Positions 48,892 through 64,000 of a DNA stretch of 64,000 nucleotides are shown in pieces. Source of the stretch: Actinotalea sp. Marseille-Q4924. GTDB taxonomy: Bacteria; Actinomycetota; Actinomycetes; Actinomycetales; Cellulomonadaceae. The DNA lies in assembly GCF_916618755.1 (NCBI RefSeq), contig NZ_CAKAKB010000001.1, positions 744,001 through 808,000 of the forward strand, in the 5' to 3' direction. The position numbers and the translations under genes are program-made. The notes beneath the pieces were generated by a model. It was given only the letters and a program-made list of their open reading frames with translations. It was not told the origin of the DNA and searched no databases. Within the stretch, counting starts at the first letter, position 1. Each line of letters begins with the position of its first letter.

Positions 48892-49042
48892 GCGGCGACC
48901 TCTTCCGTACGTGTGGTGTGGGCAAAATGTGGGCAAGCGACGGGCGCACACATGCGGCCCGTCCCGAACGATGGCGGACTCAGAGTTAGCCGTTGACCTG
49001 CACATTCGCTCCGTGCGAGCCTACTCAACCACGGGCGTCGAC

Positions 49043-49100
49043 GGTAGAGCACTCGGCTCATAACCCAGAGGTCGCAGGTTAAAATCCTGCCCCCGCTACT
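49043..49100 (+). other. att site: 3' fragment of tRNA-Met (left copy)
   Basis: From GGTAGAGCA (49043) to CGCTACT (49100) the sequence follows the second half of a tRNA with anticodon CAT. The acceptor 3' strand CCCCGCTAC and a T-arm are present. The 5' half is absent, the anticodon stem has a C-C mismatch and the T-loop reads TTAAAAT, so it is not a working tRNA. Bases 49057-49100 match 62864-62907 except at 49081. It lies next to the first integrase and marks an element end. Confidence 0.85.
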
Positions 49101-49113
49101 TGAAGTAGCAGTT

Positions 49114-49151
49114 CAGAGGCCCTTTCGATCTTCGGATCGGGAGGGCCTCTG
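49114..49151 (+). terminator. Hairpin after the left att copy
   Basis: CAGAGGCCCT pairs with AGGGCCTCTG, and an inner CGATC-TTCG-GATCG stem carries a stable UUCG loop. It sits 13 nt after the tRNA fragment, as tRNA terminators do, so it may have come with the element's own attP copy. No T-run follows. Confidence 0.65.
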
Positions 49152-49442
49152 GCGTTGGTGTCAACGAGGTGTCAACACCGGTTGCCTGGAAGTCGCCCGA
49201 ACTGGCGCAGACATCGCCGAACACTGCCCAGTCACGTGGAGGTCCTGGGCGGTGATGGACACAGAGGTTGATCATTTGGCGGACTGGTGGTCGGCCGCCG
49301 GGGACGGCGTGGGCTCCTGTGGCGGTTGTGGACTGCCGACGAGACCGGCAGGTCGCAGAACCGGGCGTTGCCCCCGCCAGTGCTCGCTGTCGTCAACCCG
49401 TGACCTTCGTTTTCGGCCCGTGCGATTGAGTATGGTTGGTAC

Positions 49443-49931
49443 ATGCAACTAGTTGAGTCGACGGCCGACCTTGCCTCGGTGGAGTCGATCGAGCAGGAGC
49501 TGACCTTGCTGGTGCGTCGGGCCCAGAAGGTGTACCTGCGCGGGGCCCCGGCGGCGCAGGTCGTGGAACGGGCGGCCTATGGGATTCTCGCGTGGCTCCA
49601 CGACATGGGCCCGCTGCGCCCCGGCGCTCTGGCGGCCCACTTCCACCTGGATGCCTCCACGATCAGCCGCCAGGTCACCTCTCTGGAGCAGGCCGGCCTG
49701 GTCGCGCGCGAGCCCGACGCCGAGGACCGACGTGCCTGCCGGCTGCGGCTCACCGAGCACGGTCAGGAGGTGTTGACCGCGACGCGGGCGGAACGGCGCG
49801 GCGTCGTCCGCGGGCTGCTGCAGTCCTGGTCTCGCGAGGACCTGGCGAACTTCGCGTCCCTGCTGGCCGCCTTCAACGCCGGCCTCGACCACCAGCTGAG
49901 CCAGTCCACCCGAGAAGAGAGTCAGCCATGA
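49443..49931 (+). CDS. MarR-family regulator of the MFS efflux gene
   Basis: This 162-residue protein has the MarR winged helix: GPLRPGALAAHFHLDASTISRQVTSLEQAGLVAREPDAEDRRACRLRLTEHG. It overlaps the MFS gene by 4 nt (ATGA) and probably represses both. A TATGGT box (49431-49436) ends 7 nt before the ATG, so the message may be leaderless. CAACTAGTTG, a perfect 10-nt palindrome at 49446-49455, overlaps the start codon region and is a likely binding site. Confidence 0.88.
   Translation: MQLVESTADLASVESIEQELTLLVRRAQKVYLRGAPAAQVVERAAYGILAWLHDMGPLRPGALAAHFHLDASTISRQVTSLEQAGLVAREPDAEDRRACRLRLTEHGQEVLTATRAERRGVVRGLLQSWSREDLANFASLLAAFNAGLDHQLSQSTREESQP
49446..49455. promoter_or_regulatory. Palindrome at the start of the MarR gene
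   Basis: CAACTAGTTG is self-complementary and begins one base after the ATG. MarR dimers bind similar short palindromes near their own promoters, often over the transcription start. The TATGGT box lies just upstream. Confidence 0.4.
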
Positions 49932-51616
49932 GCACCTCACCGTCGCCCCGAGCCGAGCAGCCCGCGGCGCCGACCGAGCAGGTGATGCCGATCCTGACGC
50001 ACCGGCAGATCCTCATCGTGTTGGTGGGTCTGATGCTGGGCATGCTGGTCTCCGCCTTGTCCCAGACGATCGTGGCCACCGCGCTGCCCACGATCGTCGG
50101 GGAGCTCGGTGGTCAGGACCAGCTGGCCTGGGTCGTGTCTGCCACGTTGTTGACCTCGACCGCGTCCACCCCCATCTGGGGCAAGCTCTCGGACCTGTAC
50201 GGCCGCAAGATCATGTTCCAGTCAGCGATCGGGATCTTCCTGGTCTCGTCCCTTGCCGCCGGGTTCGCCCAGAACATGGGGCAGCTGGTCGGGTTCCGCG
50301 CCGTGATGGGGATCGGCGTGGGAGGGCTGATGGCACTTTCCCAGGCGATCATCGGTGATGTCGTCAGCCCTCGCGAGCGTGGCCGCTACCAGGGCTACAT
50401 CGGCTCGGTCTTCGGCCTGGCTACCGTCGCCGGGCCCTTGCTCGGCGGCTTCCTGGTCGAGCACCTGTCGTGGCGGTGGACTTTCTGGGTCGGGATCCCT
50501 GTCGGCATCGTCGCCCTCGTGGTGACGGAACGCGTGCTGAAGCTGCCGTTCCCCCGCCGCCAGCACGCGATCGACTGGCTGGGAGCGTTCTTCATCGTCG
50601 CCGGGATCAGTGCGCTGCTGCTGATGCTCTCCCTCGGTGGCAAGGAGTTCGCCTGGAACTCGGTCTGGACCTATGGCCTGGCCGCGGTGGCGCTGGTGAT
50701 GCTCGCGCTCACGGTCTGGCAGGAACGCCGGACGGCCGAGCCGATCATGCCTCCTCGGCTGTTCGCCAACCACACGTTCGTCATCACCAGCCTGGCCGGG
50801 TTCGTGGTCGGGGTCGCCATGTTCGGCGCCATCATCTTCCTGCCTCAGTACCTGCAGATCGTCAAGGGCGAGTCGCCCACCGCCTCCGGTCTGCTGACCC
50901 TTCCGTTGATGGTCGGACTGCTGATCACCTCGATTGGGTCAGGGCGCCTGATCACCCGTTCCGGCCGCTACAAGATGTTTCCCGTCGCGGGTCTGCTGGT
51001 CGCCGCCGGTGGGCTGGCGCTGATGAGCCGACTGTCGGTGGACACCCCGCTGTGGCTCGCCGGGGTGTTCATGTTCATCACCGGCGCCGGCATCGGTATG
51101 GTGATGCAGGTCCTGGTCCTGGCGACCCAGAACGCGGTGCCCCATGCCGACCTCGGCGTGGCCACCTCCGGGGCGACCTTCTTCCGCTCCCTCGGCGGCG
51201 CGATGGGAGTGGCAGTCTTCGGCGCGCTGCTCACCCACCGGCTCCGCGACACCATCCCCGCGCAGCTCGAGGCGGCAGGCTTCCCCGCCGACCAGATGCC
51301 CCGCGGGGCCGCGACCCTGGGCAGTCCCGAGCAGATCGCCGACCTGCCGGAGCCCATCCATCTCGCGGTCACCACCGGGTTCGCCGAGGCACTGCAGACC
51401 ACGTTCCTGGCCGCCGTACCCTTCGCGTTGCTCGGGTTCGTCATCCTGCTCTTCCTTCGCGAAGCTCCCCTGCGACACACCCGGGGGCACACCTCGGGCG
51501 AGGACGTCGCCGCCGCGTTCGAGACCGCGGTCGACCCCGACGCGCACCTCACCGCCGAAGAAGACGCACCCGCGCCGGGCGATCCCCAGCCACCGGGGGT
51601 GCCCCGGCGTCGCTAG
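49928..51616 (+). CDS. MFS drug transporter, DHA2 (EmrB/QacA-like) family
   Basis: The start at 49928 (MSTSPSPRAEQ) overlaps the MarR stop; longer frames upstream are not real. The 562-residue product has about 14 membrane helices with motif A-like GKLSDLYGRKIMF, motif C-like GLATVAGPLLGGFL and TIVATALPTIVGELGG at the start. The family exports cationic drugs, dyes and antibiotics using protons. The C-terminus (about residues 510-562) is a cytoplasmic acidic tail. The regulator and pump form one operon. Confidence 0.92.
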   Translation: MSTSPSPRAEQPAAPTEQVMPILTHRQILIVLVGLMLGMLVSALSQTIVATALPTIVGELGGQDQLAWVVSATLLTSTASTPIWGKLSDLYGRKIMFQSAIGIFLVSSLAAGFAQNMGQLVGFRAVMGIGVGGLMALSQAIIGDVVSPRERGRYQGYIGSVFGLATVAGPLLGGFLVEHLSWRWTFWVGIPVGIVALVVTERVLKLPFPRRQHAIDWLGAFFIVAGISALLLMLSLGGKEFAWNSVWTYGLAAVALVMLALTVWQERRTAEPIMPPRLFANHTFVITSLAGFVVGVAMFGAIIFLPQYLQIVKGESPTASGLLTLPLMVGLLITSIGSGRLITRSGRYKMFPVAGLLVAAGGLALMSRLSVDTPLWLAGVFMFITGAGIGMVMQVLVLATQNAVPHADLGVATSGATFFRSLGGAMGVAVFGALLTHRLRDTIPAQLEAAGFPADQMPRGAATLGSPEQIADLPEPIHLAVTTGFAEALQTTFLAAVPFALLGFVILLFLREAPLRHTRGHTSGEDVAAAFETAVDPDAHLTAEEDAPAPGDPQPPGVPRRR

Positions 51617-52522
51617 GTGTTGTGGTTCAGGAGCTGGTGACGCATGCGGGATGCAGGAAACGGGTGTCCTGACCCCGACGCCGTTCGCCCTCCGTTGTCG
51701 CCCTGACCGGCGGATCGTGGCCGTGACACGCACAGAGGGCGTGGCGGGTCCGCGGCGGTCAAGCACTGACTGTTGGCCGCACGCCGCTTGAGCCCAGCGG
51801 GACGCGTGCCGTGGGGCCGGCTTGCCGCCGCGCCGGGAGGGGGTCAGCCGGTCGCGTCCGGCGGTCCCGCGCGGTGGCTCCCTGGTCGATCAGCCAGCGC
51901 GGGACAGCCAGCCTGCATCCAGGCCTCCATCGCGGCGACCCCACGGGCCGCCTCCAGCGCAACGACGACGGGCCGGCGATCGGGTCCGGGCCAGGCGGGG
52001 GGCCCGGCCGCCAGCCACGTGGTCAGGACCGCTGGACGTGCGTACCAGTAGGTGCCCATCGCGAGGCTTCCGGTCATCAGGCACCACGCCAGGAGGCGGG
52101 CCGCTCCCAGCAGCCATGTCGCCAGGGTGTAGAGGTACAGCCTGGCGCGAAGGTGCAACACCACGGCACCCCTCTTCCCGGGGTCTCGCAACGCTCATCG
52201 GCTCGCATCGCGCCACCGGGCCAACTCCCGGGGGCTTGTCAGCAACCCTGCCACGACGGGCCGCGCAACGGAAGCGTCCGGCCGTGCCGCCGCCGTCCCG
52301 ATCGGCGGCGTGGTGCTCGCCGGCCACCGCGACCTGTGCCCGGTCGAGCAGTCGCTGCGGATGCCGCGACCGACCTGCGGTGCCCGGTCGAATCTCCTCG
52401 CGGACCCGCCCGCCGACCCCGCCCGCCGACGGAGTGCACCCGACGATCGTGTTCGCCGCACTGGCGATCAACGACGACCAGCGGAGCTCATACGCTCTCG
52501 CCCACTGAACAGACGGACCAGG
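51617..52522. other. Low-content stretch with remnants inside the right-hand element
   Basis: No strong gene is seen. A minus-strand frame (51844-52191) contains LYLYTLATWLLGAARLLAWCL and TWLAAGPPAWP, which look like a membrane protein, but only a TTG or an internal GTG start is available. A plus-strand tail (52426-52508) reads GVHPTIVFAALAINDDQRSS, resembling the VVFAALA block of IS1634-type transposases, then stops. Both could be remnants. Confidence 0.4.
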
Positions 52523-53068
52523 TCAGGCCTCACGGCCAGGCTGGGGGAGGTGCGCCTCGATCAGCTCTATGATCTCGGGCGCGTCGGGCTCGACCTTCGG
52601 CCGGAATCGATGCACATGGCCGTCGGGGGTGAGGAGGAACTTCTCGAAGTTCCAGGTGATGCGCCCCGCCTTCCCGCTGGCGTCGGGGGTGCGGGTCAAC
52701 TCGGCGTAGAGAGGGTGCCGTGACCTGCCGTTGACCTTGACCCGCTCGAACATCGGAAAGGTCACGCCCCAGGTCGTCGAGCAGTACTCCTTGATGGCGT
52801 CCTCACTGCCCAGTTCCTGCAGGAACTGGTTGCTCGGGAACCCGAGCACGGTGAAACCTCGCTGCCCATAGGTGCGCTGGAGGGCCTCGAGCTTGTCGTA
52901 CTGGGGTGCGAGCCCGCACCGCGAGGCGACGTTGACGATCAGCCTGACCTGCCCGGCGTACCTCGCCAGGGTCGTGACCTCGCCGTCGATCGTCGTGACC
53001 GGGATGTCGTCGATCGTCGTGACCGGGATGTCGTCGATCGTCGTGACCGGGATGTCGTCGATCGCCAT
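52523..53068 (-). CDS. Glutathione peroxidase family protein with tripled N-terminal motif
   Basis: This 181-residue Gpx/BsaA-type peroxidase has Cys51 in NVASRCGLAPQY, Gln81 in GFPSNQF and Trp in ITWNFEKFL, the catalytic triad. The Cys form reduces peroxides using thioredoxin or similar donors. The N-terminus repeats IDDIPVTT three times because of a 24-bp tandem repeat; other members usually have one copy. It is alone on the minus strand. It stands among efflux and detoxification genes, which suggests a role in oxidative stress. Confidence 0.9.
   Translation of the reverse strand: MAIDDIPVTTIDDIPVTTIDDIPVTTIDGEVTTLARYAGQVRLIVNVASRCGLAPQYDKLEALQRTYGQRGFTVLGFPSNQFLQELGSEDAIKEYCSTTWGVTFPMFERVKVNGRSRHPLYAELTRTPDASGKAGRITWNFEKFLLTPDGHVHRFRPKVEPDAPEIIELIEAHLPQPGREA
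52989..53060. repeat. Three perfect 24-bp tandem repeats inside the Gpx gene
   Basis: The unit starts ATCGTCGTGACCGGGATG and is present at 52989-53012, 53013-53036 and 53037-53060 without a mismatch. It encodes the octapeptide IDDIPVTT on the minus strand. The 24-bp period keeps the frame. Perfect identity suggests recent slippage or strong constraint. Confidence 0.95.
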
Positions 53069-53266
53069 GCCTGCTCAACACCGCGGCGAAAACGGGCATT
53101 CCCGCCCCGGCGGTGCCGGCCGGTGGCGCGACAGCCCTCAGCGGGCTGCCCGCGGTGGGGTAGGTCGCTCAGCGCAGGTGCAGGTCTTTCCGGCTCGAGC
53201 GGCGCCAAGCCCGTTCACCGGGGCCGCGGGCATGACCACCCACTCACACGAGCGCACGGGCTTCGG

Positions 53267-53815
53267 TCACCTGCTGCCAGCGCGGACGGCCGCTCGGACC
53301 GCCCGCACGGTTCGATCTGCCTCTTCCGGCGGCGTCACCGGCCCCGATGGCCTTTCTGGCGCTCCACTGACCTCGTCACCGTAGACCTGCTCTGCGGCTC
53401 GCCGCAGCGCCGCGAATGCCGTGGCTATGGTCCGCACGCTGTCGTCGTCCAGGAGGGACAGGAGCGCGACGCGATGTCCGGCGCCTTCGGCCATCAACGT
53501 GTCCACCAGCTGTGAGCCTTGAGCTGTGGGATGCACCTGTCGGGCGCGCCGGTCGGTCGGGTCGGCCACGCGCTCGACGAGCCCCCGGTGTTCGAGCCTG
53601 TCCACCAGGCCGGTCACCGACGCCGGGCTGATCTTCAGTGCGTCGGCCAGCTCGTGGCTCATCAGGGAGCCGTCGGCGTGCAGCAGCAGCAGCACCTTCA
53701 GCTGCTGCATCGTCAAGGTCGTCTGCAGCAGAGCGGTGAACTGGGCCCGCGAGAAGAGGCGGATCAGCGCCGCCTCGTCCTCGGCGATCGCCGCCATCAC
53801 CGCATCGCGTTCCAC
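53267..53815 (-). CDS. MarR-family regulator of the RND efflux gene
   Basis: This 182-residue protein has LTMQQLKVLLLLHADGSLMSHELADALKISPASVTGLVDRLEHRGLVERVADPTDRRARQVHPTAQG, a full MarR winged helix with the DRR wing. It is divergent from the RND gene, and the 65-bp gap holds an inverted CCCGTA/TACGGG pair. It probably represses the pump and itself. The GTG start at 53813-53815 is taken; a later start at VMAAIAEDE is possible. Confidence 0.88.
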   Translation of the reverse strand: MERDAVMAAIAEDEAALIRLFSRAQFTALLQTTLTMQQLKVLLLLHADGSLMSHELADALKISPASVTGLVDRLEHRGLVERVADPTDRRARQVHPTAQGSQLVDTLMAEGAGHRVALLSLLDDDSVRTIATAFAALRRAAEQVYGDEVSGAPERPSGPVTPPEEADRTVRAVRAAVRAGSR

Positions 53816-53839
53816 CGTGTGACTCGATTCTTCGGTCAG

Positions 53840-53872
53840 CCCGTACTATTCACCTCGCACCGACTATACGGG
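53840..53872. promoter_or_regulatory. Divergent operator region of MarR and RND efflux genes
   Basis: CCCGTA (53840-53845) and TACGGG (53867-53872) are inverted across a 21-nt spacer that holds TAGTAC (minus strand) and TATACG (plus strand) as possible -10 boxes. The layout lets one repressor cover both promoters. GGAG (53871-53874) is the ribosome site for the RND gene. Confidence 0.5.
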
Positions 53873-53880
53873 AGATCTCC

Positions 53881-56800
53881 ATGACTCGTCTTGCCCGGCT
53901 GAGCCTTGCCAACCGCGCCGTGGTGGCACTGGCGACGTTGATCCTCATCGTGGCGGGCGTCTTGTCGACGACGTCGCTGAAGCAGGAGCTCATCCCGTCC
54001 TTGGAGATCCCGCTCGCGGTGGTGGTGACGCCTCTCCCGGGTGCGGCGCCGGACGTGGTCGAGCGGCAGGTGACCGAGGTGGTCGAGGCTGCCGTCAGCG
54101 GTGTGGAAGGTCTGGAGGGGACCGAGTCCACGAGCCGCAACAGCCTGTCGGTGGTGTCGGTGGAGCTGGCCTACGGTACCGACCTGCAGGCGGCCCAGCA
54201 GGACCTGGAGCAGGCCGTGACCCGGGCGGGCACCGGCCTGCCGACGGGCGTCACACCGTCTGTGATCACCGGCAGCATCGACCAGCTCCCGGTGGTGCAG
54301 CTGGCGGTGGCCGCCCCGCAGCTGGACGAGCAGGAGCTCGTGACCCGGGTGGAGGAAGAGGTCGTTCCGCGGTTGCGGGGCCTGGAGGGGGTTCGGGAGG
54401 TCACCCTGTCCGGGGCGCGGGAGACGCGGGTCGAGATCGTTCCGGACCCCGTGGCCCTGGGGGCCGCGGGGATCGGCCTGGATGCTCTCACTTCGGCACT
54501 GCAGGCCAACGGTGCGGTCATCCCGGCCGGCACGGTCACCGACGGGCAGCGCTCCCTGAACGTCGTGGTGGGCGAGCGGTTGTCCTCGGTGCAGGACATC
54601 GCGGCGATCCCGCTGCCCACCGCTGACCCCTCAGGGGCACCGGTCCTGCTGGGAGACGTGGCCACGGTCGAGCAGGCACAGGTTCCCGCCACCTCCTATG
54701 CCCGGACCAACGGTCAGGCGAGCGTCGCTCTGGCGATCACCAAGACCCCTGACGGCAACACCGTCAGCGTCTCCCATGACGTGCGGGACCTGATCCCGGG
54801 GATCGAGGCGGCGCTGGGTGAGGGTGCTGCGGTCGACGTGGTCTTCGACCAGGCCCCGTTCATCGAGAAGTCGATCGAGGACCTGAGCACCGAGGGCCTC
54901 CTCGGCCTGATCTTCGCCGTGATCGTGATCATGCTCTTCCTGCTGTCACTGCGCTCCACCTTGGTTACCGCGATCTCGATCCCGCTGTCGTTGCTGATAG
55001 CGATGACCGGGCTGCTGGTCGGTGGGTACTCGCTGAACATCCTGACCCTGGGGGCGCTGACGGTCGCGGTCGGACGGGTCGTGGACGACTCGATCGTGGT
55101 GATCGAGAACATCAAGCGCCACCTCGGCTACGGCGAGCCCAAGGCGCAAGCGATCTTGACCGCGGTGCGTGAGGTCGCCGGCGCCGTGACGTCCTCCACC
55201 ATCACCACCGCGGCGGTGTTCGTGCCGATCGGGATCGTCGGCGGTCAGGTCGGCGAGCTGTTCCGGCCCTTCGCCTTCACCGTGGCCGTGGCCCTGCTGG
55301 CCTCGCTGGTCGTCTCCTTGACCATCATCCCGGTGCTGGCCTACTGGTTCCTGCGCGCCCCGGCCGACCATCAGCACGCGGCTGTGGACCGGGACCGTGT
55401 CGAGCAGGGCGAGCGCCACGGACTTCTCCAGCGCAGCTACCTGCCGGTGCTCCGAGGGGCCATCGCCCACCCGCTGATCACTCTCGCCATCGCCGTCGCC
55501 GTCCTCGGCGGGACCCTCGCGGCCGGCACGAGGCTGGAGACCAACTTCATCGGCGACGCCGGGCAGAATACCCTCAGCGTCGACCAGCAGCTTCCGGCCG
55601 GCACGAGCCTGGAGGTCACCGACGCCGCCGCACGGCAGGTCGAGGAGGTCATCGCCGAGCTGGACGGCGTCGAGACCTACCAGGTGACCGTGGGCTCGGG
55701 TGGAAGCGGGCTGCAGACCGCCTTCCTGGGCGGTGGCGGCGGGTCGAACACGGCCACCTTCGCGATCACCACCGACCTGGACGCCGACCAGGCCCGGGTC
55801 GAGCAGGACCTTCGTGCCGCGATCGCGGACGTGGAGGACGCCGGGGAGCTGACCGTGACCACCGGGCAGGCCGGGTTCGGGTTGCCGCCGGTGGAGGTCG
55901 TGGTCCGTGCCGACGACGACCAGACGCTGCGCGAGGCCGCAGATCTGGTCGCCGAGGCCATGGCGGACGTCCAGGGCACGACCGACGTCGTGAACAACCT
56001 TGCCTCAGACGCACCAGCGGTCCAGATCCAGGTCGACCGGGCGGCAGCGACCCAGGCTGGCACCAGCGAGAGCGCTATCGGGCAGGCGGTGGCCGGCCTG
56101 CTCCGTGGTGCGCCGATCGGCCAGGCGGACATCGCCGGGCGCACCACCGACGTCGTGGTGCTCCTGGGCCAGGCCCCCGGCGACGTCCAGGCCCTGCGCG
56201 ACACCCCTGTCCCCACCGCCACCGGGATCGTTCCCCTGGGGCAGGTCGCCGAGGTCAGCGAGGTCCAGCAGCCCACCAGCCTGACCCGACAGGACGGGCA
56301 GCGCACGGCCACGGTGACCGCCACCGCGACCGATCAGAACCTCGGCGGTATCACCACCCGGCTGCAGGAACAGCTCGACGCCCTCGACCTGCCCGACGGC
56401 GCAGAAGCCGAGATCGCAGGCGTCAGCGCCGAGCAGCAGTCAGCGTTCGCCGACCTGTACGTGGCCCTGCTGGCCTCCATCGCCATCGTCTACCTGGTGA
56501 TGGTCGCCACGTTCCGCTCCCTGCTGCAGCCGCTCATCCTCCTGGTGTCGGTGCCGTTCGCCGCCACCGGAGCACTGGCCCTGCTGCTGCTCACCGGCAC
56601 ACCCCTGGGCGTGCCGTCGCTGATCGGGCTCCTCATGCTGGTCGGCATCGTGGTGACCAACGCGATCGTGCTCATCGACCTGGTCAACCAGAAGCGCGAG
56701 CAGGGCCTGAGCGTGGTCGACGCCGTGATCGAGGGGTCCCGATACCGCCTGCGGCCGATCCTGATGACCGCCGCAGCGACCATCGGCGCCCTGACCCCCA

Positions 56801-56991
56801 TGGCACTGGGACTGACAGGCGGCAGCGTCTTCATCTCCCAGCCGCTGGCCCTGGTGGTCATCGGCGGGCTGACCACCTCCACCCTCCTGACCCTGGTGCT
56901 CGTCCCGGTCCTGTACAACCTGACCGAACGCGCCAGCGCGGCCCTGCGTGAGCGCCGAGGCCGCCGGACGGCCACCACCCTCCCAGCCTGA
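53881..56991 (+). CDS. RND-family efflux transporter (HAE1/AcrB-like)
   Basis: This 1036-residue RND protein has the double layout of the family: a helix at the start (ANRAVVALATLILIVAGVL), a large outer loop, helices 2-6 with AVGRVVDDSIVVIENIKRH (acid pair in helix 4), a second loop (from about residue 540) and helices 8-12. The N-terminal TTSLKQELIPSLEIP matches the HAE1 pattern. No membrane-fusion or outer-membrane partner is present, so it probably works alone as in other Gram-positive bacteria. Substrates unknown. 56992-57248 shows no gene. Confidence 0.93.
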   Translation: MTRLARLSLANRAVVALATLILIVAGVLSTTSLKQELIPSLEIPLAVVVTPLPGAAPDVVERQVTEVVEAAVSGVEGLEGTESTSRNSLSVVSVELAYGTDLQAAQQDLEQAVTRAGTGLPTGVTPSVITGSIDQLPVVQLAVAAPQLDEQELVTRVEEEVVPRLRGLEGVREVTLSGARETRVEIVPDPVALGAAGIGLDALTSALQANGAVIPAGTVTDGQRSLNVVVGERLSSVQDIAAIPLPTADPSGAPVLLGDVATVEQAQVPATSYARTNGQASVALAITKTPDGNTVSVSHDVRDLIPGIEAALGEGAAVDVVFDQAPFIEKSIEDLSTEGLLGLIFAVIVIMLFLLSLRSTLVTAISIPLSLLIAMTGLLVGGYSLNILTLGALTVAVGRVVDDSIVVIENIKRHLGYGEPKAQAILTAVREVAGAVTSSTITTAAVFVPIGIVGGQVGELFRPFAFTVAVALLASLVVSLTIIPVLAYWFLRAPADHQHAAVDRDRVEQGERHGLLQRSYLPVLRGAIAHPLITLAIAVAVLGGTLAAGTRLETNFIGDAGQNTLSVDQQLPAGTSLEVTDAAARQVEEVIAELDGVETYQVTVGSGGSGLQTAFLGGGGGSNTATFAITTDLDADQARVEQDLRAAIADVEDAGELTVTTGQAGFGLPPVEVVVRADDDQTLREAADLVAEAMADVQGTTDVVNNLASDAPAVQIQVDRAAATQAGTSESAIGQAVAGLLRGAPIGQADIAGRTTDVVVLLGQAPGDVQALRDTPVPTATGIVPLGQVAEVSEVQQPTSLTRQDGQRTATVTATATDQNLGGITTRLQEQLDALDLPDGAEAEIAGVSAEQQSAFADLYVALLASIAIVYLVMVATFRSLLQPLILLVSVPFAATGALALLLLTGTPLGVPSLIGLLMLVGIVVTNAIVLIDLVNQKREQGLSVVDAVIEGSRYRLRPILMTAAATIGALTPMALGLTGGSVFISQPLALVVIGGLTTSTLLTLVLVPVLYNLTERASAALRERRGRRTATTLPA

Positions 56992-57248
56992 CACTGACAC
57001 CCCCGGCGGTCTCCGGCGGGTCGTGATTCACAGCCGTTCCGGTCGACCGTGGACCGGCGCACCTGTGCCAACCAGGCCGAGCGCGCCTCGGCGACCTTCG
57101 AGTGCCGGCGCCACCCCGGCCTCAGCTACCGGTGCCCGAACGACTTGGCGGACCTTCACACCGCCGCAGTGGCCGTGGCACGATCAACGAGCCGTCCGGG
57201 ATACCGGGTCAGGCTCCTGCAGCACGACCTCAACGAAGGGGTTAGGCG

Positions 57249-58262
57249 ATGAAGGCAGCGCGGTTGCACGAGTTCGGCGGTGACTTCGTGGTGGAGGAGG
57301 TTCCGACGCCGGAGCCCGGTGCCGGTGAGGTTCGGGTCCGCGTCGGCGGGTCCGGCGCGTGCCACTCCGACCTGCACGTCCGGGCGGGGGAGATCCCCGT
57401 CCACCTTCCCGCCCTGCTGGGGCACGAGAACGCCGGGTGGGTGGACGCCATCGGTCCGGGCGCCGAGGGCTTTGAGATCGGTGAGCCCGTCGTGGTGTTC
57501 GGTGGGTGGGGCTGCGGCCGCTGCCGTGTGTGCTTGGGTGGCCAGGAGCAGCTGTGCGACACCATGCGGTGGGGCGGTATCGGCCCCGACGGTGGCTACG
57601 CGGACTACATGGTCGTGCCGAGCACCCGGCACCTGCTGGCCGCTGGCGACCTGGACCCGGCGCTCGCTGCCCCGCTGACCGACGCGGCGCTCACCCCGTA
57701 CTCGGCGGTGAAGAAGGCCCTCCCGCGTCTGGTGCCCGGCACCACGGCGGTGCTGGTGGGCGCCGGTGGGCTCGGCCAGTACGGGCTGCAGTTCCTCAAG
57801 CTCCTCTCCCCGGCGACGGTGGTTGTCGTCGACAGCTCGGCGGACAAGCGGCGCCTCGCCCTGGAACTCGGTGCCGACCAGGTGGTCGACCCGGCAGACG
57901 CCGACGCCATGGAGCAGATCAAGGCCGCCAGCCACGGCGAAGGCGCGGCGGTCGCGCTGGACTTCGTCGGGGCCGACGCGACGATGAGGCTGGGGGCCTC
58001 GTCGCTGGGCCCGCAGGGCCTGTTCGTCCTGGTGGGCCTGGCGGGAGGTTCCTTCCCGTTCTCGTTCTTCTCCCTGCCCGTCCAGGCGACGCTGACCAGC
58101 AGCAGCTGGGGCAGCCGCAACGAGCTGGAGGAGGTCCTCGCCATGGCCCGGACCGGGCGCCTGGTCTCCACGATCGAGCGGTATCCGCTGGGCGAGATCA
58201 ACGACGTGTTCGCGCGCCTCGCCGCCGGGCAGGTCCAGGGCCGTGCCGTCCTGATCCCTTGA
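57249..58262 (+). CDS. Zinc-dependent alcohol dehydrogenase (MDR family)
   Basis: This 337-residue medium-chain dehydrogenase has the catalytic zinc ligands C38 (GACHSDLH) and H59/E60 (GHEN), the structural zinc Cys quartet (CGRCRVC and EQLC, C89-C103) and the cofactor site VGAGGLGQYGLQ. VVVVDSSADKRR, with Asp after the second strand, suggests NAD rather than NADP. It oxidises alcohols or reduces aldehydes. It has its own upstream gap and a GAAGGGG site 12 nt before the ATG. Confidence 0.92.
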   Translation: MKAARLHEFGGDFVVEEVPTPEPGAGEVRVRVGGSGACHSDLHVRAGEIPVHLPALLGHENAGWVDAIGPGAEGFEIGEPVVVFGGWGCGRCRVCLGGQEQLCDTMRWGGIGPDGGYADYMVVPSTRHLLAAGDLDPALAAPLTDAALTPYSAVKKALPRLVPGTTAVLVGAGGLGQYGLQFLKLLSPATVVVVDSSADKRRLALELGADQVVDPADADAMEQIKAASHGEGAAVALDFVGADATMRLGASSLGPQGLFVLVGLAGGSFPFSFFSLPVQATLTSSSWGSRNELEEVLAMARTGRLVSTIERYPLGEINDVFARLAAGQVQGRAVLIP

Positions 58263-58379
58263 GCACACTCGTCCACGTCCCGCTAGGCGCGTCTGCCACG
58301 GCGAGCGGCACCATGCGCTGACGCGGCGCCCGCCGCCATCACCGCCTGGCCGAAGACAGCAGACATGACCCGGTCCGGG

Positions 58380-58739
58380 CTAGTCAGCCGCCCGGCTCCA
58401 TTCTGCTGCCCAGGAAGCTATCGCGTCGATGACCGGTCCGAGGGCCCGCCCCTTCGCCGTCAGCACGTAGCGCGGTGCGCCTGCGCCGATCGGGCACGTG
58501 CGCGAGAGGAGTCCTTCGCGTTCCAGCTCCCGTAGCCTCTCGGCCAGCAGGCGGTCCGAGAGCCCGGGGATGACGGCGCGGATCTCACTGAAGCGCTCCG
58601 CGTGGGCCATCAGGGCGTGAAGAATGACACCGTTCCACCGTCGACCGAGCAGCTCGACGGTCTGGTGGAACGACGGGCAGTAGCGACCGCAGTCGTCGCC
58701 CGCGGGACCGACCGCCTCGTCCGCCACCTCGCCCTCCAC
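58380..58739 (-). CDS. HxlR-family regulator
   Basis: This 119-residue protein has the HxlR winged helix: CPSFHQTVELLGRRWNGVILHALM, FSEIRAVIPGLSDRLLAERLRELEREGLL and YVLTAKGRAL. Two Cys in DCGRYCPSF lie where redox- or electrophile-sensing HxlR proteins (HypR, QorR type) have theirs. It is divergent from the DoxX gene. It therefore probably represses DoxX-DUF5519 and responds to aldehydes, quinones or disulfide stress (inference). Confidence 0.88.
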   Translation of the reverse strand: MEGEVADEAVGPAGDDCGRYCPSFHQTVELLGRRWNGVILHALMAHAERFSEIRAVIPGLSDRLLAERLRELEREGLLSRTCPIGAGAPRYVLTAKGRALGPVIDAIASWAAEWSRAAD

Positions 58740-58755
58740 GTCCGCTCAAGGGTGA

Positions 58756-58806
58756 TTGACCCGCGCCCAGGGTACTGCTATACCTCAATCACTTACATCT
58801 GGTAAG
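58756..58806 (+). promoter_or_regulatory. Promoter and operator of doxX
   Basis: TTGACC (58756-58761) and TATACC (58779-58784) are 17 nt apart, a good vegetative promoter reading to the right. CTTAC (58792-58796) and GTAAG (58802-58806) form perfect arms with a 5-nt spacer at the expected transcription start, which suits repression by the divergent HxlR protein. Confidence 0.6.
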
Positions 58807-58826
58807 CGGCGACCTGGAAGGGTGAC

Positions 58827-59246
58827 GTGGAGGTCCTGGTGCTCATCGGCAGGGTGGTCTTCGCCTTGCTCTTCCTCGGCTCAGGCTTTGGCCACCTCAC
58901 ACAGCGGCAGATGATGGCCGGTTACGCCACCGGCAAGGGAGTGCCTGCCGCCAACCTGATGGTCCCGCTGACCGGGCTGCAGCTCCTGGCCGGCGCACTG
59001 ATGGTGGCCCTGGGGATCTGGCCCGACGTCGGCGCCCTCCTGCTGGTGACCTTCCTGGTGCCCACAGCCTTCATCATGCACGGCTTCTGGGCCGAGACCG
59101 ACCCCGGCGCCAAGGCCATGGAGCAGACTCAGTTTCTCAAGGACCTGGCCCTGGCCGGAGCGGCACTGGTGATGTTCGCCGTCTTCGCCTACCTCGGTGA
59201 CGATCTGGGCCTGGTCCTGGTCGGCCCGCTGTTCAGCCTGTCATGA
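58827..59246 (+). CDS. DoxX-family membrane protein
   Basis: This 139-residue protein has four membrane helices, starting RVVFALLFLGSGFGHL and including PLTGLQLLAGALMVALGIW and FLKDLALAGAALVMFA, as in DoxX proteins. DoxX members are linked to thiol redox balance and thiosulfate metabolism in mycobacteria. The GTG start has GGAAGGG upstream. It overlaps the next gene by 4 nt (ATGA). Confidence 0.88.
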   Translation: MEVLVLIGRVVFALLFLGSGFGHLTQRQMMAGYATGKGVPAANLMVPLTGLQLLAGALMVALGIWPDVGALLLVTFLVPTAFIMHGFWAETDPGAKAMEQTQFLKDLALAGAALVMFAVFAYLGDDLGLVLVGPLFSLS

Positions 59247-59746
59247 GCGGCGCGGTTCCCGTGGCCATGCCCGAGCGCCCGGGCCCGCGACCCTCGACGA
59301 CCCCGACCAACCCGCACACCCAGCTCGACCAGCAGCCGAGCGACGACCGACCACGGCAGCGCCTCATCGGGCAGCTCGCCGACCTGCCGGATGTGGTCTG
59401 GGCGGCCTCGACGATCTCTGTCCCGGGTGCACAAGCGCTCACGCTGCCTCGGGGCCCACACCGAGGGCCACCCGACGCGTTCATGATCGACACCGAGTTC
59501 GCCCACCTCCACCCGGCCCCTGACCACTCCCTTCACCTGGTACTGCCGTCGGCGGCCGCCGAAGCCGCCATCGACGCCGGCTGGGCCGAGCAGCACCCCA
59601 TCGCCCGCCTCGGGCTCATCTCGCCGGGTGCGGTCATGGTCTACGCGCCACGGGACGCGCACGAGGCGGACATCGCCGCCGGCCTCGTCCGGGCGTCCTA
59701 CGCATACGCAACTGGTTCGACGCGTTCGCTCAGAGCGAAAACCTGA
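59243..59746 (+). CDS. DUF5519/luciferase-like family protein
   Basis: This 167-residue protein has an N-terminal Pro-rich stretch, then DLPDVVWAASTISVPGAQALTL, DAFMIDTEFAHLHPAPDHSLHLVLP and AEQHPIARLGLISPGAVMVYAPRD, a DUF5519-like pattern with several His near the centre. No catalytic activity is established. It starts inside the doxX stop, so the two are made together under HxlR control. The family name is from pattern recognition; confidence in the gene is high, in the family moderate. Confidence 0.7.
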   Translation: MSGAVPVAMPERPGPRPSTTPTNPHTQLDQQPSDDRPRQRLIGQLADLPDVVWAASTISVPGAQALTLPRGPHRGPPDAFMIDTEFAHLHPAPDHSLHLVLPSAAAEAAIDAGWAEQHPIARLGLISPGAVMVYAPRDAHEADIAAGLVRASYAYATGSTRSLRAKT

Positions 59747-59818
59747 GCGGGCAAAGACGCCGCGGCCCGACTCTCCGGTCCGCGCCCGATCCGAAGATCA
59801 CTCAAGGAGGAGTGCCTC

Positions 59819-60673
59819 ATGGCAGGACGACTCGAGGGCAAGGTTGCCCTCATCACCGGTACGGCGGACGGTCAGGGACGGGCCGCCGCCCTCGCCTTCG
59901 CCGCTGAAGGCGCCAAGATCGTCGGGTGCGATCTCAAGGCGGAACTAGCCGAACAGACCGTCGAGCTCGTCCGGGCGCAGGGCGGTGAGATGGTCTCGAT
60001 GCAGCCGCTGAACCTGGGCGACGAAGCCGCGGTGCAGCGCTGGATCGACTTCGCCGTCGAGCAGTACGGCGACTTCGACATCCTGTACAACAACGCCTCG
60101 GGTGTCCGCGGCGGCACCATCGAGTCCTTGACCCGCGCGGACTGGGACTTCGACATGACCAACGAGGTCACCATCTTGTTCCTGGCCATCCAGAAGGCCC
60201 TGCCGGTCTTCAAGCGCAAGGGCCGCGGCACCATCCTCAACACCGGCTCGGTCGCCGCGATGGTCGGCTCGGCCATGCCCGGCAACGTCGCGGGCAACCT
60301 CGTGCACAACGTCGCCAAAGGCGCCGTCCTGCGCCTGACGACCAATCTCGCCGTCGAGCTGTCACCGTGGAACATCCGCGTCAACACCGTCTCCCCAGGG
60401 TTCATCGACACCCCCGCGACACGACCGCTGCTGGAGGCCGGCGGGCGCGCACCTGTCGAACGCGCACTGCTCAACCCGCGCGTGGGGCGGCCGGAGGACA
60501 TCGCCATGGCAGCTGTGTACCTGTGCTCGGACGAGGCGGACTACGTCACAGGTGCGAACCTGGTCGTCGACGGCGGCTGGGTCGCAGGTGGCGGCGTCGG
60601 CCGCCCCGACCCCGAGATCGAACAGATCTTCGGCGAGGTGATGAAGAAGCTGACCAACGCCCCCACCGCCTGA
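59819..60673 (+). CDS. Short-chain dehydrogenase/reductase lacking the usual Tyr
   Basis: This 284-residue SDR has the cofactor motif TGTADGQGRA, DLKAE after the second strand (Asp suggests NAD), NNAS, a Ser at 143 in LNTGSVAA, Lys at 167 in AKGAV and SPGFIDTPAT. The catalytic Tyr expected four residues before Lys is His163 (LVHNVAK), and no Tyr lies between Ser143 and Lys167. It may use His instead or be inactive as a dehydrogenase. AAGGAGGAG lies about 6 nt before the ATG. It follows the DoxX-DUF5519 pair. Confidence 0.88.
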   Translation: MAGRLEGKVALITGTADGQGRAAALAFAAEGAKIVGCDLKAELAEQTVELVRAQGGEMVSMQPLNLGDEAAVQRWIDFAVEQYGDFDILYNNASGVRGGTIESLTRADWDFDMTNEVTILFLAIQKALPVFKRKGRGTILNTGSVAAMVGSAMPGNVAGNLVHNVAKGAVLRLTTNLAVELSPWNIRVNTVSPGFIDTPATRPLLEAGGRAPVERALLNPRVGRPEDIAMAAVYLCSDEADYVTGANLVVDGGWVAGGGVGRPDPEIEQIFGEVMKKLTNAPTA

Positions 60674-60877
60674 CAGTGAGGATGTAGGCGAGCCCTCGAC
60701 GACGCTCCCTGCCCTCTGCGCGCCTGACGGTGACCGACGCCGCCGACCCTTCGGTGCCGCCGATCTGGCCCGCCCGCGGCCGGGGCCTCGCGGTCGTGCT
60801 GTTGGCCGCCACCACCTGATCCCTCCGGCAAACACGGACCGCGGCGCTGGTCGCGGCATGGCGAAAGGTCAACGAAG

Positions 60878-61450
60878 TTGATGCCTGACATGGCAACGAT
60901 GCTCGCGCACTGGACCGAGAGGGCCGGGCCCCACTCAGAGGGCGCGCTCCTGCAACCGCACCATGAACGGTGCCTTGGCTGCGGCCCGGACAACCCCCAC
61001 GGCCATCACCTCCAGGTCCACCGCCGTGGGGACGGGGTGATGGCTGACCATGTCTTCGACGAGCGCCACGTCGGAGCTCCCGGAGTCGTGCACGGCGGCG
61101 CCGTCGCCACCGTCCTTGACGACCTGTTCGGGTTCCTGCCCTACCTGGTCGGAACGCCGGCCGTCACCCGCCAGCTCACAGTGGACTACCTGTCACCGGT
61201 GCTCGTCGGAGTCACCTACCGGATCGAGGCGACGGTGACGAGCCGGGAGGACCGCAAGGTCTTCGTCGTCGCCACCGTGAGCGACCTGGATGAACGCACC
61301 GTGGCCACGTCGAGCGCGGTGTTCATCACGGTCGACGTCGAACACTTCGCCCGGCACGGAGGCGTCTCCGGCGGTGGCCCGACACCACCCGTCACGAATG
61401 ACCACCGTGACACCGGCCGGGAGAGCGCGGTGGGCCAGCAACGCGGGTAG
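60878..61450 (+). CDS. Hotdog-fold thioesterase (PaaI-like)
   Basis: The frame opens with TTG at 60878; ATG at 60881 is the more likely start. The roughly 190-residue product has CLGCGPDNPHG, GVVHGGAVATVLDDLFGFLP and TRQLTVDYLSPVLVG, the hotdog helix with HGG and the following strands of PaaI/THEM4-type acyl-CoA thioesterases. It probably hydrolyses a CoA thioester formed by the preceding oxidoreductases. The C-terminal 30 residues are a polar tail. Confidence 0.85.
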   Translation: MMPDMATMLAHWTERAGPHSEGALLQPHHERCLGCGPDNPHGHHLQVHRRGDGVMADHVFDERHVGAPGVVHGGAVATVLDDLFGFLPYLVGTPAVTRQLTVDYLSPVLVGVTYRIEATVTSREDRKVFVVATVSDLDERTVATSSAVFITVDVEHFARHGGVSGGGPTPPVTNDHRDTGRESAVGQQRG

Positions 61451-61553
61451 TGCGTGTCTCGACAGCGATCTGTGCGCGCGAGCTCCAGCCGGACCCTGAA
61501 CCCGCCACGCGCCCGAGGCCCGCGGAACCGCTTCGCTTGAAGCCCGGGGTGGG

Positions 61554-62705
61554 TCACCTCGAGGCGCGGGAGCGGGTGGCGTGAAAGGCGGCGAGTGCGC
61601 GCTGATCGGCGTCGCCGAGGGTGTGCAGGTACTTCTGGGTGGTCTGGATCTGCGCGTGGCCCATTCGCTCCATCACGGAGAGAAGGTCCGCTCCTCCGGC
61701 CAGCAGCCAGGATGCGTGTGCGTGACGTAGGTCGTGCATGCGAACGGGAAAGTCGATGCCGGAGCGTTGAACGGCCGGCCGCCAGTAGCGGGTGTTGAAC
61801 GTGCCCCGCGAGAGGGGTTGGCCTCCTTCGGTCTCACGGGAAGGGAAGAGCAGGTCGGCCGGTCCCAGGCCGAGGTCATCGATCCGCGCGAGGAGGGCGT
61901 CGATCAGATCCTGGGAGACCGCGACGGTGCGCGGCTCGTCGTCCTTGGGGTAGGGCTTGACGATCATACGGCGCCCGGTTGGGGAGTCCTTGGTGGACAC
62001 CTCCACGATGGTGTCCTGCACGGTCACCGTGCGGGCCTCGGTGTCCACGTGCCGGGGTCGTAGCGCGACGAGCTCGCCCCATCGCAGGCCGGTCTCGATG
62101 GCCGTCATGACCATGACCGTGAAGCGCGGCGGGATCTGCGCCAGCAGCCGGGTGTACTCATCCGGGGTGAGGGTGCGGGTCCTGGTGGTGATCACCTTCG
62201 GAAGGTCGGTCGCCGCGCAGGGGTTGAAGGGGATGATCCGGTCGGCCACGGCTCGGGCGAAGATCGAGTGCAGCATCACGTGGTACTTGACGATGGACCG
62301 CGCGGACAGGCCCTTGCGTCGCTTGTCGGCGATCGTCGTGGGTTTGGCCGCCTGGTTGACCCACTCCTGGACCAGGGCAGGCATGATCCGCGCCATTGGG
62401 TAGTCCCCGAAGAAGGGGACGAAGTGGATGCGCAGGTTCGAGGCGTACGCGGCGTAGGTGGTGACCTCCAGGTGGCGCGAGGGCAGCCACACGTTCTGGG
62501 CATACTCCTTGAAGGTGATGCGTCCGGCCCGTGGGTCGATCCACGTCCCCTCGGCGAGCGCGATCTCGGCGCGGACAGCGGCCTGCATGGCGGCCTTGTC
62601 GGTGCTGAAAGTCCCGACGGTGCGCTTGGCTCCTGAGGCGTCGCGGTAGCGGCCCTGGTACCGCTTCTTGCCGTCCTCGGCCCGCCGCACGGTCACCCAC
62701 GCCAT
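61554..62705 (-). CDS. int: Tyrosine integrase of the right-hand tRNA element
   Basis: The start at 62703-62705 (MAWVTVRRAEDG) matches the first integrase; the longer frame runs into the att side. The 383-residue protein has an arm-binding domain, the SAM-like domain and catalytic R208 (TGLRWGE), H324/R327 (HDLRHAH), H350 (MGHAQI) and Y359 (TTQKYLHT). It carries a 10-residue insert (KPTTIADKRR) absent from the first integrase. It ends 159 nt left of the att copy at 62864. It should recombine at the tRNA-Met 3' end. Confidence 0.94.
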   Translation of the reverse strand: MAWVTVRRAEDGKKRYQGRYRDASGAKRTVGTFSTDKAAMQAAVRAEIALAEGTWIDPRAGRITFKEYAQNVWLPSRHLEVTTYAAYASNLRIHFVPFFGDYPMARIMPALVQEWVNQAAKPTTIADKRRKGLSARSIVKYHVMLHSIFARAVADRIIPFNPCAATDLPKVITTRTRTLTPDEYTRLLAQIPPRFTVMVMTAIETGLRWGELVALRPRHVDTEARTVTVQDTIVEVSTKDSPTGRRMIVKPYPKDDEPRTVAVSQDLIDALLARIDDLGLGPADLLFPSRETEGGQPLSRGTFNTRYWRPAVQRSGIDFPVRMHDLRHAHASWLLAGGADLLSVMERMGHAQIQTTQKYLHTLGDADQRALAAFHATRSRASR

Positions 62706-62863
62706 CTCGACCACCCCGGCCGACATGTGGGCCCAATGTGGGCAGACGCCGCCGGGCACTGGCGAACAGCGGCGAACGCCGGCGTACGCGAAACCCATGC
62801 TGATGTGGGTAGATGCATGCATTGAGCCTACTCAGGCGTCGTCCCCTGGCAAGAGGGCCTGCA

Positions 62864-62907
62864 CTCATAACCCAGAGGTCGCAGGTTCAAATCCTGCCCC
62901 CGCTACT
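62864..62907 (+). other. att site: 3' fragment of tRNA-Met (right copy)
   Basis: CTCATAACCCAGAGGTC to CCCCGCTACT is the anticodon loop (CAT), variable loop, T-arm with intact TTCAAAT, and acceptor 3' strand. The 5' half is missing, since the sequence before CTCATAA is unrelated. It matches 49057-49100 with one difference (C at 62888). It is probably the displaced original 3' end of the chromosomal tRNA gene. Confidence 0.88.
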
Positions 62908-62910
62908 CAT

Positions 62911-62946
62911 GACGAAGGCCCGGACCTGATGGTCCGGGCCTTCGTC
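62911..62946 (+). terminator. Strong hairpin after the right att copy
   Basis: GACGAAGGCCCGGACC and GGTCCGGGCCTTCGTC are perfect 16-nt arms with loop TGAT, three bases after the tRNA fragment. This is probably the original tRNA-Met terminator, now cut off from its gene by the insertions. The stretch from here to 63223 (about 280 nt) shows no gene. Confidence 0.8.
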
Positions 62947-63223
62947 GTCGGGCACGGAGCCGCGCGCCCCGCGGTCCGTCGTCCCCAGGCGACCTGCCGG
63001 CGCTGGACGAGCAGAGCCGCCACGGCCGCTGTGGGGACCGTGGGGATGTCGTGCCGTGCTTCTCGTCGAACCGGACACGTCCCGTGCCTGCGACGAACAC
63101 CTCACCGTCGGGATCAGGTGATGGGAGTGTGCCTCGGGTGTGTGGCTGGCCACGTACCGGGGCGCCGGAGTGTGGTGCTCGCACCGATGCCTGCGGTGAC
63201 GGTCACGTCAGACCGTGGAGGGC

Positions 63224-64000
63224 ATGAACACGACTCACTTCACCCGCTTGTCGGCCATGTCCGTCGTCTCCGCGATGCTCGTCGCGGGCTGCTCGGGCGG
63301 GGACGACCTCGAGCCCGCGCAGGCGAGCACATCACCTGCCGCCCCTGCGGAGCTACGCCTCGCCTTCACGAGCGGACTTGCTGACGCGCACGTCGAGGCC
63401 CTGCAGGACGCGATCGCGACGCAGGAGGACTCCGGGCTCTCGATGACCGTCGACCAGTCCGCGGACGTCCAGCACACCCGCGACGGCGAGCAGCGGATCG
63501 TCCAGGCGGTCGCCGACGGCACCATCGACCTGGCGGTGGTCGGTGCGCGGGTGTTCAGTCAGCTGGGCGCGCACGACCTCGACGCGCTCGTCGCCCCGAT
63601 GGTGCTGACCAGCGTCGAAGCCCAGGAGGCGGTCTGGTCGACGGACCTCGTGGACCGGATGCTCGACGGTCTGGGGTCGGTCGGCGTCACCGGTCTCGCC
63701 GCGTTCCCTGGCCCGGTGCGACGCCCTGTCGCCGCGGGTGAACCGCTGATCGGCCGGGCCGACTTCGAGGACGTCCCGTTCTTCGTCTGGGACGGGGACG
63801 TCAGCGAGCTGACCGTCGAGGCGCTCGGAGCCACGGCCGTGGAGGTCACACCCGAGGAGCGCAACGCCGGCATCGAGGACGGGACGATCCACGCCTTCGA
63901 CAACACGCTGCTGTTCATGGCGGACAAGACGGACTGGGCCACCCGGGCGATGTCGTTGAACGTCGGGCTCTGGCCGTCCGTCAGCGTGCTGGTCGCCAAC
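63224..64000 (+). CDS. TRAP/DctP-type solute-binding lipoprotein, cut by window end
   Basis: ATG at 63224 with GGAG upstream gives a lipoprotein signal (VVSAMLVAGC). The 259 visible residues include LRLAFTSGLADAHVEALQ, VQAVADGTIDLAVVGARVF, a hinge near LTSVEAQEAVWS and TVEALGATAVEVTPEE, the DctP fold of TRAP transporters that bind organic acids. The conserved Arg in GPVRRPV fits the carboxylate ligand. The gene continues past the window. It is the first gene on what looks like undisturbed chromosome. Confidence 0.82.
   Translation, partial: MNTTHFTRLSAMSVVSAMLVAGCSGGDDLEPAQASTSPAAPAELRLAFTSGLADAHVEALQDAIATQEDSGLSMTVDQSADVQHTRDGEQRIVQAVADGTIDLAVVGARVFSQLGAHDLDALVAPMVLTSVEAQEAVWSTDLVDRMLDGLGSVGVTGLAAFPGPVRRPVAAGEPLIGRADFEDVPFFVWDGDVSELTVEALGATAVEVTPEERNAGIEDGTIHAFDNTLLFMADKTDWATRAMSLNVGLWPSVSVLVAN

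Follow-up and report, generated by a model that had tools for sequence, protein, structure and literature searches.

Two integrase-bearing elements stacked at an initiator tRNA gene of Actinotalea sp. Marseille-Q4924

Two elements behind one tRNA gene

The window analysed here is a stretch of 64,000 nucleotides from Actinotalea sp. Marseille-Q4924 (contig NZ_CAKAKB010000001.1, positions 744,001 to 808,000), in which two tyrosine integrase genes each lie beside a 44-bp copy of the 3′-end of a tRNA-Met gene. Coordinates are those of the window unless prefixed with C1, which denotes contig coordinates of the host genome (G000; six contigs, 99.99% complete). As the original prediction had stated, the two copies are in direct orientation and differ by one mismatch (98% identity); they are located at 49057–49100 (fragment 1) and 62864–62907 (fragment 2), at a spacing of 13807. 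A search of the host genome located a third copy, identical at 44/44 positions, at C1:713349, in an intact tRNA-Met(CAT) gene predicted by ARAGORN at C1:713317–713391. This gene is situated to the left of the window, 30.6 kb from its first base and 79.7 kb from fragment 1, and ARAGORN finds no whole tRNA within the window itself. A genome search with window positions 62640–63400 retrieved the intact gene at 80.6 bits (E = 1.5e-15) and fragment 1 at 76.1 bits (E = 3.4e-14), so the copies are not due to chance; the presence of the intact gene also rules out that they are unrelated repeats.

The intact gene is taken to encode initiator tRNA-fMet, given its GGG/CCC anticodon stem and C1–T72 mismatch. 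The other CAT tRNA found (C1:481008) is read as elongator tRNA-Met, and a query with the whole tRNA found no second initiator gene in G000. The shared identity of the copies runs from C32, the first base of the anticodon loop, to the 3′-end of the tRNA. Judged by their sequence, the 44-bp copies are 3′ fragments of what is apparently the host's only initiator tRNA-fMet gene. The tRNA-Met target named in the original prediction thus stands, narrowed to an initiator gene outside the window. In genus g20, some genomes, such as G167 (L208) and G190 (L211), have two complete genes for the initiator tRNA, separated by about 1.9 kb.

Fragment 1, on the forward strand like fragment 2, starts at anticodon-loop base 32, carries a C56 to A change and forms the joint between the left-hand element (A) and the right-hand element (B). 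Fragment 2 is the terminal fragment and is unchanged (C56). Directly behind it lies the tRNA gene's own terminator-like hairpin (62908–62948, forward strand), now separated from its gene; a similar hairpin directly follows the intact gene in Actinotalea subterranea (G018) and in G167. The hairpins behind the intact gene of G000 and behind fragment 1 are element-borne and unlike the chromosomal one, and the hairpin behind fragment 1, a replacement terminator-like hairpin recognised by eye, forms the left end of B (49101–49157, forward strand). The order is thus tRNA, A (79.7 kb), fragment 1, B (13.85 kb), fragment 2, tRNA terminator, chromosome. An intact gene on one side, 3′ fragments that separate and follow the elements, and a relative that lacks one of the elements together identify a tandem accretion array, and the intact gene and both fragments in one genome confirm the stacking of related integrase elements at a single tRNA gene.

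Both integrases are tyrosine recombinases (PF00589, E = 2e-23 and 2.4e-26; PF14659) encoded on the minus strand beside their fragments. The integrase of A, int1 (47770–48891), has 373 residues and that of B, int2 (61554–62705), has 383, counted from MAWV starts at 48891 and 62705, respectively. Their alignment, at 71% identity, agrees with the expectation that they share most residues and this start. The sequence common to both fragments upstream, also part of the original prediction, is GAGCCTACTCA, found at 49017–49027 and at 62824–62834. On the minus strand it contains a candidate −10 box (TAGGCT) of a putative int1 and int2 promoter, respectively. At several right ends, GAGCCTACTCA and the sequence nearer the fragment, read by eye on the minus strand, give TTGnnn ... 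TAGnnT; this promoter-like pair is perhaps the integrase promoter.

Element B and its neighbours in related genomes

Among the relatives, G002 is Cellulomonas carbonis, G004 Actinotalea ferrariae CF5-4, G006 Actinotalea lenta, G153 Cellulomonas marina and G171 Cellulomonas phragmiteti, while G014 is a metagenome-assembled genome (MAG). The left end of B is found in four of the 221 genomes of the family (G000, G002, G004 and, from another genus, G198), behind four different left neighbours and with exact fragment borders in every copy. Over 13.8 kb, the B copies of G000, G002 and G004 differ by nine single bases (of which the last base of B possibly belongs to the flank), a 24-bp repeat and a 2-bp indel, against left-flank DNA identities to G000 of 82.4% in G002 and 86.3% in G004. 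Across all six host pairs, the DNA left of fragment 1 is 73–80% identical (0.9–1.3 kb aligned of 1.4 kb), and the 1.2 kb right of it 99.9–100% identical. A protein search of the genus found int2 100% identical in G000, G002 and G004 and in no other genus genome. The copy in G198 (L203–L205, G198:C1:2995662–3030101) holds about 20 kb of extra DNA inside and has a mosaic middle; its outermost 1,209 bases on the left and 1,508 bases on the right, the right-hand figure being counted from the last base of the tRNA, are identical to those of G000. The DNA to the right of B begins with the chromosomal-type hairpin in G000, G002 and G198 and with other sequence in G004. By these comparisons, B is a discrete travelling unit in four species, behind four different neighbours.

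The insertion itself can be read from a pair of relatives. G002, which has B, and G010, which does not, share 99.97% identity in the 3.5 kb that lead to the joint; past it, G010 continues with C56 and the chromosomal-type hairpin, and G002 with A56 and B. On this alignment, G010 is the B-less state of the left-element end of G002, and the pair bears out, for relatives, the earlier suggestion that the right-hand element sits in the end of the left-hand one. A looser B-less counterpart for G000 is G171, with 89.9% identity over 1.27 kb. That the array is able to grow or shrink, as originally proposed, is inferred; the different left neighbours in the four hosts show that arrays have changed over time.

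Elements at this gene are common in the genus. When copies of the tRNA 3′ half were counted at up to three mismatches in its 19 genomes, eight held at least two and five at least three, and G013 held none. In the 18 genomes with a copy, the sequence read 3′ of the intact gene was an element-type left end in 15, other sequence in G008 and G011, and the chromosomal-type hairpin in G018. The contig of G018 ends 1.7 kb on, and an int2-like gene lies at the end of another contig, so that emptiness is established for its tRNA joint alone. The original prediction proposed to search relatives for an empty tRNA-Met site followed immediately by the TRAP gene, which was not obtainable in the genus: the TRAP protein matched only its own genome (1/19), as did one further right-flank protein, a second DctP (1/19). 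Empty or B-less sites were therefore recognised by the tRNA's own terminator (G018, G010). The 12 right-flank proteins compared with the relatives' stretches gave only distant matches, for two proteins. In G000, the array is followed by two DctP-type (TRAP) binding proteins and a kinase/regulator pair (63215–64000 and L009).

Arm repeats and altered tRNA ends

Each element end carries two 8-bp repeats 11 bp apart, here called arm repeats. The right arms of A (48917–48935, forward strand) are TGTGGGCA twice, and the same pair occurs at its left end (C1:713453–713471). The left arms of B (49158–49176, forward strand) are GTGTCAAC twice and are unlike its right arms, TGTGGGCC and TGTGGGCA (62726–62744, forward strand). 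The right arms of B match the left arms of A in G000 and the left end at the tRNA gene in G198 and G004, but not that in G002.

Agreement between left and right arms was scored for 13 elements whose two ends share a contig, with B entered a single time. The scores sum to 205, against 170.3 (standard deviation 6.8) under permutation, and none of 20,000 permutations was as high; the permutation ignores relatedness, and G002 and G010 are close kin. Ten of the elements score 15–19 of 19. Agreement is at background level in B (11/19), the third element of G009 (10/19) and one G014 element (13/19). The test set excludes pairs split between contigs, among them the last G004 element with no left end assigned to it, and two G014 elements with no visible arm pair or an atypical left end. 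By eye, the contig-split pairs of G005 and G171 agree and that of G153 does not.

Arm sequence also follows the integrase. Across 17 integrases (21 extracted, less four duplicates; eight duplicate named loci had been dropped beforehand), identity of the first 65 residues correlates with similarity of the right arms at r = 0.79, and the partial correlation given the rest of the protein is again 0.79 (0/5,000 permutations); for the rest of the integrase given the N-terminus it is −0.24. Integrases without an MxW start or a long reading frame, the TGGTCAAC-type among them, were left out, and the rule for picking right-arm pairs needs GC in the second repeat, so that other repeat types could not enter. 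Linkage could contribute to this correlation, as the N-terminus is encoded beside the right arms; agreement with the far left arms is less easily explained in this way.

Wherever it was found, the A56 allele marks the left end of B. Fragment 1 has the C56 to A change in all four copies of B, while C56 is kept by the G010 recipient end and by the right-end fragments of B; the allele therefore travels with B, and the crossover most likely falls between bases 32 and 56. In its sequence context, A56 occurs in four of 221 family genomes, always in the left fragment of B and behind another element, and in one of 396 order genomes, namely G000. The pattern used would miss a copy of B with C56; the genus is covered by the int2 protein search as well. 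Across the class, the intact initiator pattern has C56 in 134 of 148 genomes and another base in none, the remaining 14 matching neither. C56 pairs with G19 in the elbow of the tRNA. Judged from this T-loop change, a cell that lost A by itself might be left with a crippled initiator tRNA.

Other inner fragments are altered as well. Changes were found in 2/19 intact genes (one compensated pair in both), 10/15 inner fragments and 0/12 terminal fragments (p = 0.005), the inner count becoming 7/12 when B is counted once. Positions were assigned by reading, with one uncertain G004 fragment (C168; p = 0.006 if inner). With dropped fragments added, the counts are 7/16 inner and 0/13 terminal (p = 0.008), and with the MAG G014 excluded 3/6 and 0/11 (p = 0.03). 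The excess of altered inner fragments depends on the counting and is suggestive only. In G014, one element (L132 and L137; G014:C3:2936 and 25954) has the same anticodon-position change (CTCGTAA) at both ends; its sequence reads as if an already altered fragment had served as the target.

Gene content, class and movement of the elements

Element A extends over 79.7 kb from the intact tRNA gene to fragment 1 (C1:713349–793056; fragment 1 starts at C1:793057), and its right-hand 47.8 kb fill window positions 1–47769, with the conjugation genes mainly to the left of the window. That the left-hand element bears an integrase had been recognised correctly; it is here corrected to an element of conjugative type that extends leftwards, past the edge of the window, as far as the intact gene. 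Among its scanned open reading frames, which are part of its total, Pfam identifies a TrwC relaxase (E = 1.4e-85), a TraG-D_C coupling protein (E = 1.3e-27) and a TrbL/VirB6-like protein (E = 5.5e-6). The other scanned proteins include an ArdC-like protein, a type I restriction system, T2SSE and T2SSF (5535–8862), Nramp, a disulphide reductase and a P-type ATPase, with metal and cytochrome cargo at about 17150–47383 that includes cytochrome c assembly proteins, cation efflux, cytochrome bd subunit I and an ABC protein. The element has its own integrase, attachment (att) copies at both ends (the tRNA gene and fragment 1) and matching arm repeats, as an integrative and conjugative element (ICE) should; with its relaxase and coupling protein, its gene content marks it as a conjugative-type element. 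Its cargo (17150–47383) is 96–99% identical to that of G002 and G010; the conjugation region is only 66–72% identical in G002 and gave no alignment of at least 400 bases in G010. The cargo block seems, on these alignments, to have been exchanged between different conjugative backbones.

Element B (49057–62907, 13.85 kb) is bounded by fragments 1 and 2. Its forward-strand cargo comprises a MarR regulator (49443–49931), an MFS transporter within a longer reading frame (49592–51616; the domain begins at residue 147 and the real start is probably later), an RND (AcrB-type) transporter (53881–56991), a zinc-type alcohol dehydrogenase (57249–58262), a DoxX-like protein (58827–59246), a short-chain dehydrogenase (59819–60673) and a 4HBT thioesterase (60878–61450). 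On the minus strand are a glutathione-peroxidase-like protein with an in-frame 24-bp repeat (52523–53068), a second MarR regulator (53267–53815) and an HxlR regulator (58380–58739). The 24-bp repeat lies near the start of the glutathione-peroxidase-like gene (52984–53069), where G000 has one unit more than G002 and G004. No transfer or mobilisation gene and no relaxase was found among ten Pfam-scanned proteins of B and int2, a scan that did not extend to small reading frames or a transfer origin. A plasmid origin of B was considered: 65 plasmid records matched, none covering 80% of it, and 17 of the 20 matches listed were to the tRNA end only. As for a phage origin, the phage integrases found (1234 records) were all less than 60% identical to int2.

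Like a cis-mobilisable element (CIME), B retains both attachment sites (attL and attR) and, as far as the scanned proteins go, lacks transfer genes. It is called CIME-like, and not a CIME, because int2 is uninterrupted, whereas the recombination genes of a CIME are lost; it would work like one if its neighbour serves its ends. By the definition given for integrative and mobilisable elements (IMEs) in the part of PMC7563491 consulted, an IME encodes a relaxase, and the ten scanned proteins of B include none.

ICEs, IMEs and CIMEs are well known to accrete when one element recombines site-specifically into the attR fragment of another (PMC5704250, PMC7563491). According to PMC3218068, tandem actinomycete ICEs (AICEs) lie at tRNA genes in Frankia sp. 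EAN1pec (Fean5518/Fean5534, tRNA-Lys) and Streptomyces avermitilis (Sav3708/Sav3728, tRNA-Arg). These pairs likewise place two elements at one tRNA gene, with closely related integrases in the case of Frankia; AICEs use FtsK-type transfer, whereas A, with its TrwC relaxase and type IV secretion system (T4SS)-type genes, resembles the 17 T4SS-type ICEs of that study. The passages of PMC3218068 consulted do not contain the present target, the arm repeats or the altered tRNA end, nor does the word Cellulomonas occur in its main text. The ICE-CIME and ICE-IME accretion of Streptococcus elements related to ICESt1/ICESt3 shares with the present array the tandem arrangement, insertion in the attR of the other element and composites moving in cis, in the parts of PMC5704250 consulted; B differs in its uninterrupted integrase, its unlike arm repeats, the altered end of the target gene and the initiator tRNA as target. 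Stacking at tRNA genes, actinobacteria included, is thus already known; the arm-repeat pattern and the A56 fragment were not found described in the literature searched, as far as its text was available. The same partly available literature yielded no report of elements stacked at an initiator tRNA, of stacks in which arm repeats agree, or of ICEs from Actinotalea.

Taken together, the locus is an accretion array at an apparently single initiator tRNA-fMet gene in which B probably moves with a neighbour. For islands of Streptomyces, Zhang and Loria reportedly described in 2017, going by the title, site-specific accretion and cis-mobilisation; host and elements differ, and the parallel would be accretion with movement in cis in an actinobacterium. 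The integrases would recombine at the anticodon loop, so that on insertion of an element the gene to its left acquires a new 3′ half, while the old half comes to lie at the far end of the element. Recombination between the tRNA gene and fragment 1 would then release A and leave A56 in the tRNA, that between the tRNA gene and fragment 2 would release A and B together (93.5 kb) and leave C56, and that between the two fragments would release B. The agreement of the arms favours the first two exchanges over the release of B. As far as the sequence indicates, only the exchange between the tRNA gene and fragment 2 would both fit the arm repeats and leave the usual initiator tRNA. Because the right arms of B match the left arms of A, A and B together are the predicted mobile unit; and since no transfer gene was seen in B and its end arms are unlike, we infer that B most likely travels with its neighbour. 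The pair would be transferred by the conjugation machinery of A and inserted into a tRNA gene or into the terminal fragment of another element, and later loss of the carrier would leave B behind. More tentatively, if A were excised by itself, the sole initiator tRNA gene would end up with an altered T-loop, and this would favour retention of A or movement of the two elements as one.

Several observations weigh against this account. With an uninterrupted integrase, B may move alone despite its unlike arms, and three of the 13 elements, B included, fail to show arm agreement. No left end with the right-arm repeat of B was seen in the G002 array, so that co-excision of the kind proposed for A and B is not predicted there. 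The VirB4-like AAA_10 match in A is below the Pfam cut-off. ARAGORN accepts all three joined forms of the tRNA, the A56 form included, and thus does not discriminate as a test of the change; two initiator genes, as in some g20 genomes, would relax the proposed constraint. The excess of altered inner fragments weakens to 3/10 against 0/12 (p = 0.08; 0.078) when the MAG is excluded and the dropped fragments are added, and to 3/11 against 0/11 (p = 0.21) when the uncertain G004 fragment is moved as well.

Co-movement of A and B remains, from the sequence, the most likely reading, and its main rival is an autonomous B, which int2 would excise and insert whatever the arm repeats, using the neighbour's conjugation machinery in trans. 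An uninterrupted int2, unchanged in three hosts, and four copies with exact borders behind different neighbours make this a real if less probable alternative. It sits poorly with the want of a relaxase among the ten scanned proteins (the transfer origin was not searched) and with left arms unlike the right arms that accompany int2-type N-termini, in a set where ten of 13 elements agree clearly above background. That B is instead a fixed remnant, its left neighbours differing through exchange of whole conjugative elements, would suit the mosaic backbones and cargo blocks of the arrays; it is very improbable, as nine single-base differences beside flanks at 82–86% identity to G000 indicate recent movement, and G010 and G002 have a common left-element end without and with B.

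What A56 does is a separate matter. It is slightly the better guess that the allele is a neutral mark of a spreading element, with no effect on tRNA function or on the neighbour: it is one base only, ARAGORN accepts the tRNA, and changes in other inner fragments are expected from relaxed selection alone. Against neutrality stand the failure to find the intact initiator pattern with any other base at this position in 148 class genomes and the confinement of A56, in the family, to four fragments that each lie behind another element. The opposite extreme, which we consider unlikely, is that B is obliged to occupy the second row and locks its neighbour in place: its altered tRNA end could not replace the initiator tRNA, B could live only behind another element, the neighbour could not leave alone without damaging the only initiator gene, both would have to leave together, and stacking would be self-reinforcing. 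End copies in inner positions would then decay, and private arm repeats would tell identical core sites apart.

Two questions posed by stacked islands are how an integrase recognises the ends that belong to it when all core sites are identical and what keeps the stack from falling apart, and the arrays described here provide data on both. In most elements tested, an element-specific pair of repeats is alike at the left and right ends, and it varies with the N-terminus of the integrase; and B, a widely travelled element, brings with it a tRNA end that, were the neighbour to leave, would alter the initiator tRNA of the host.

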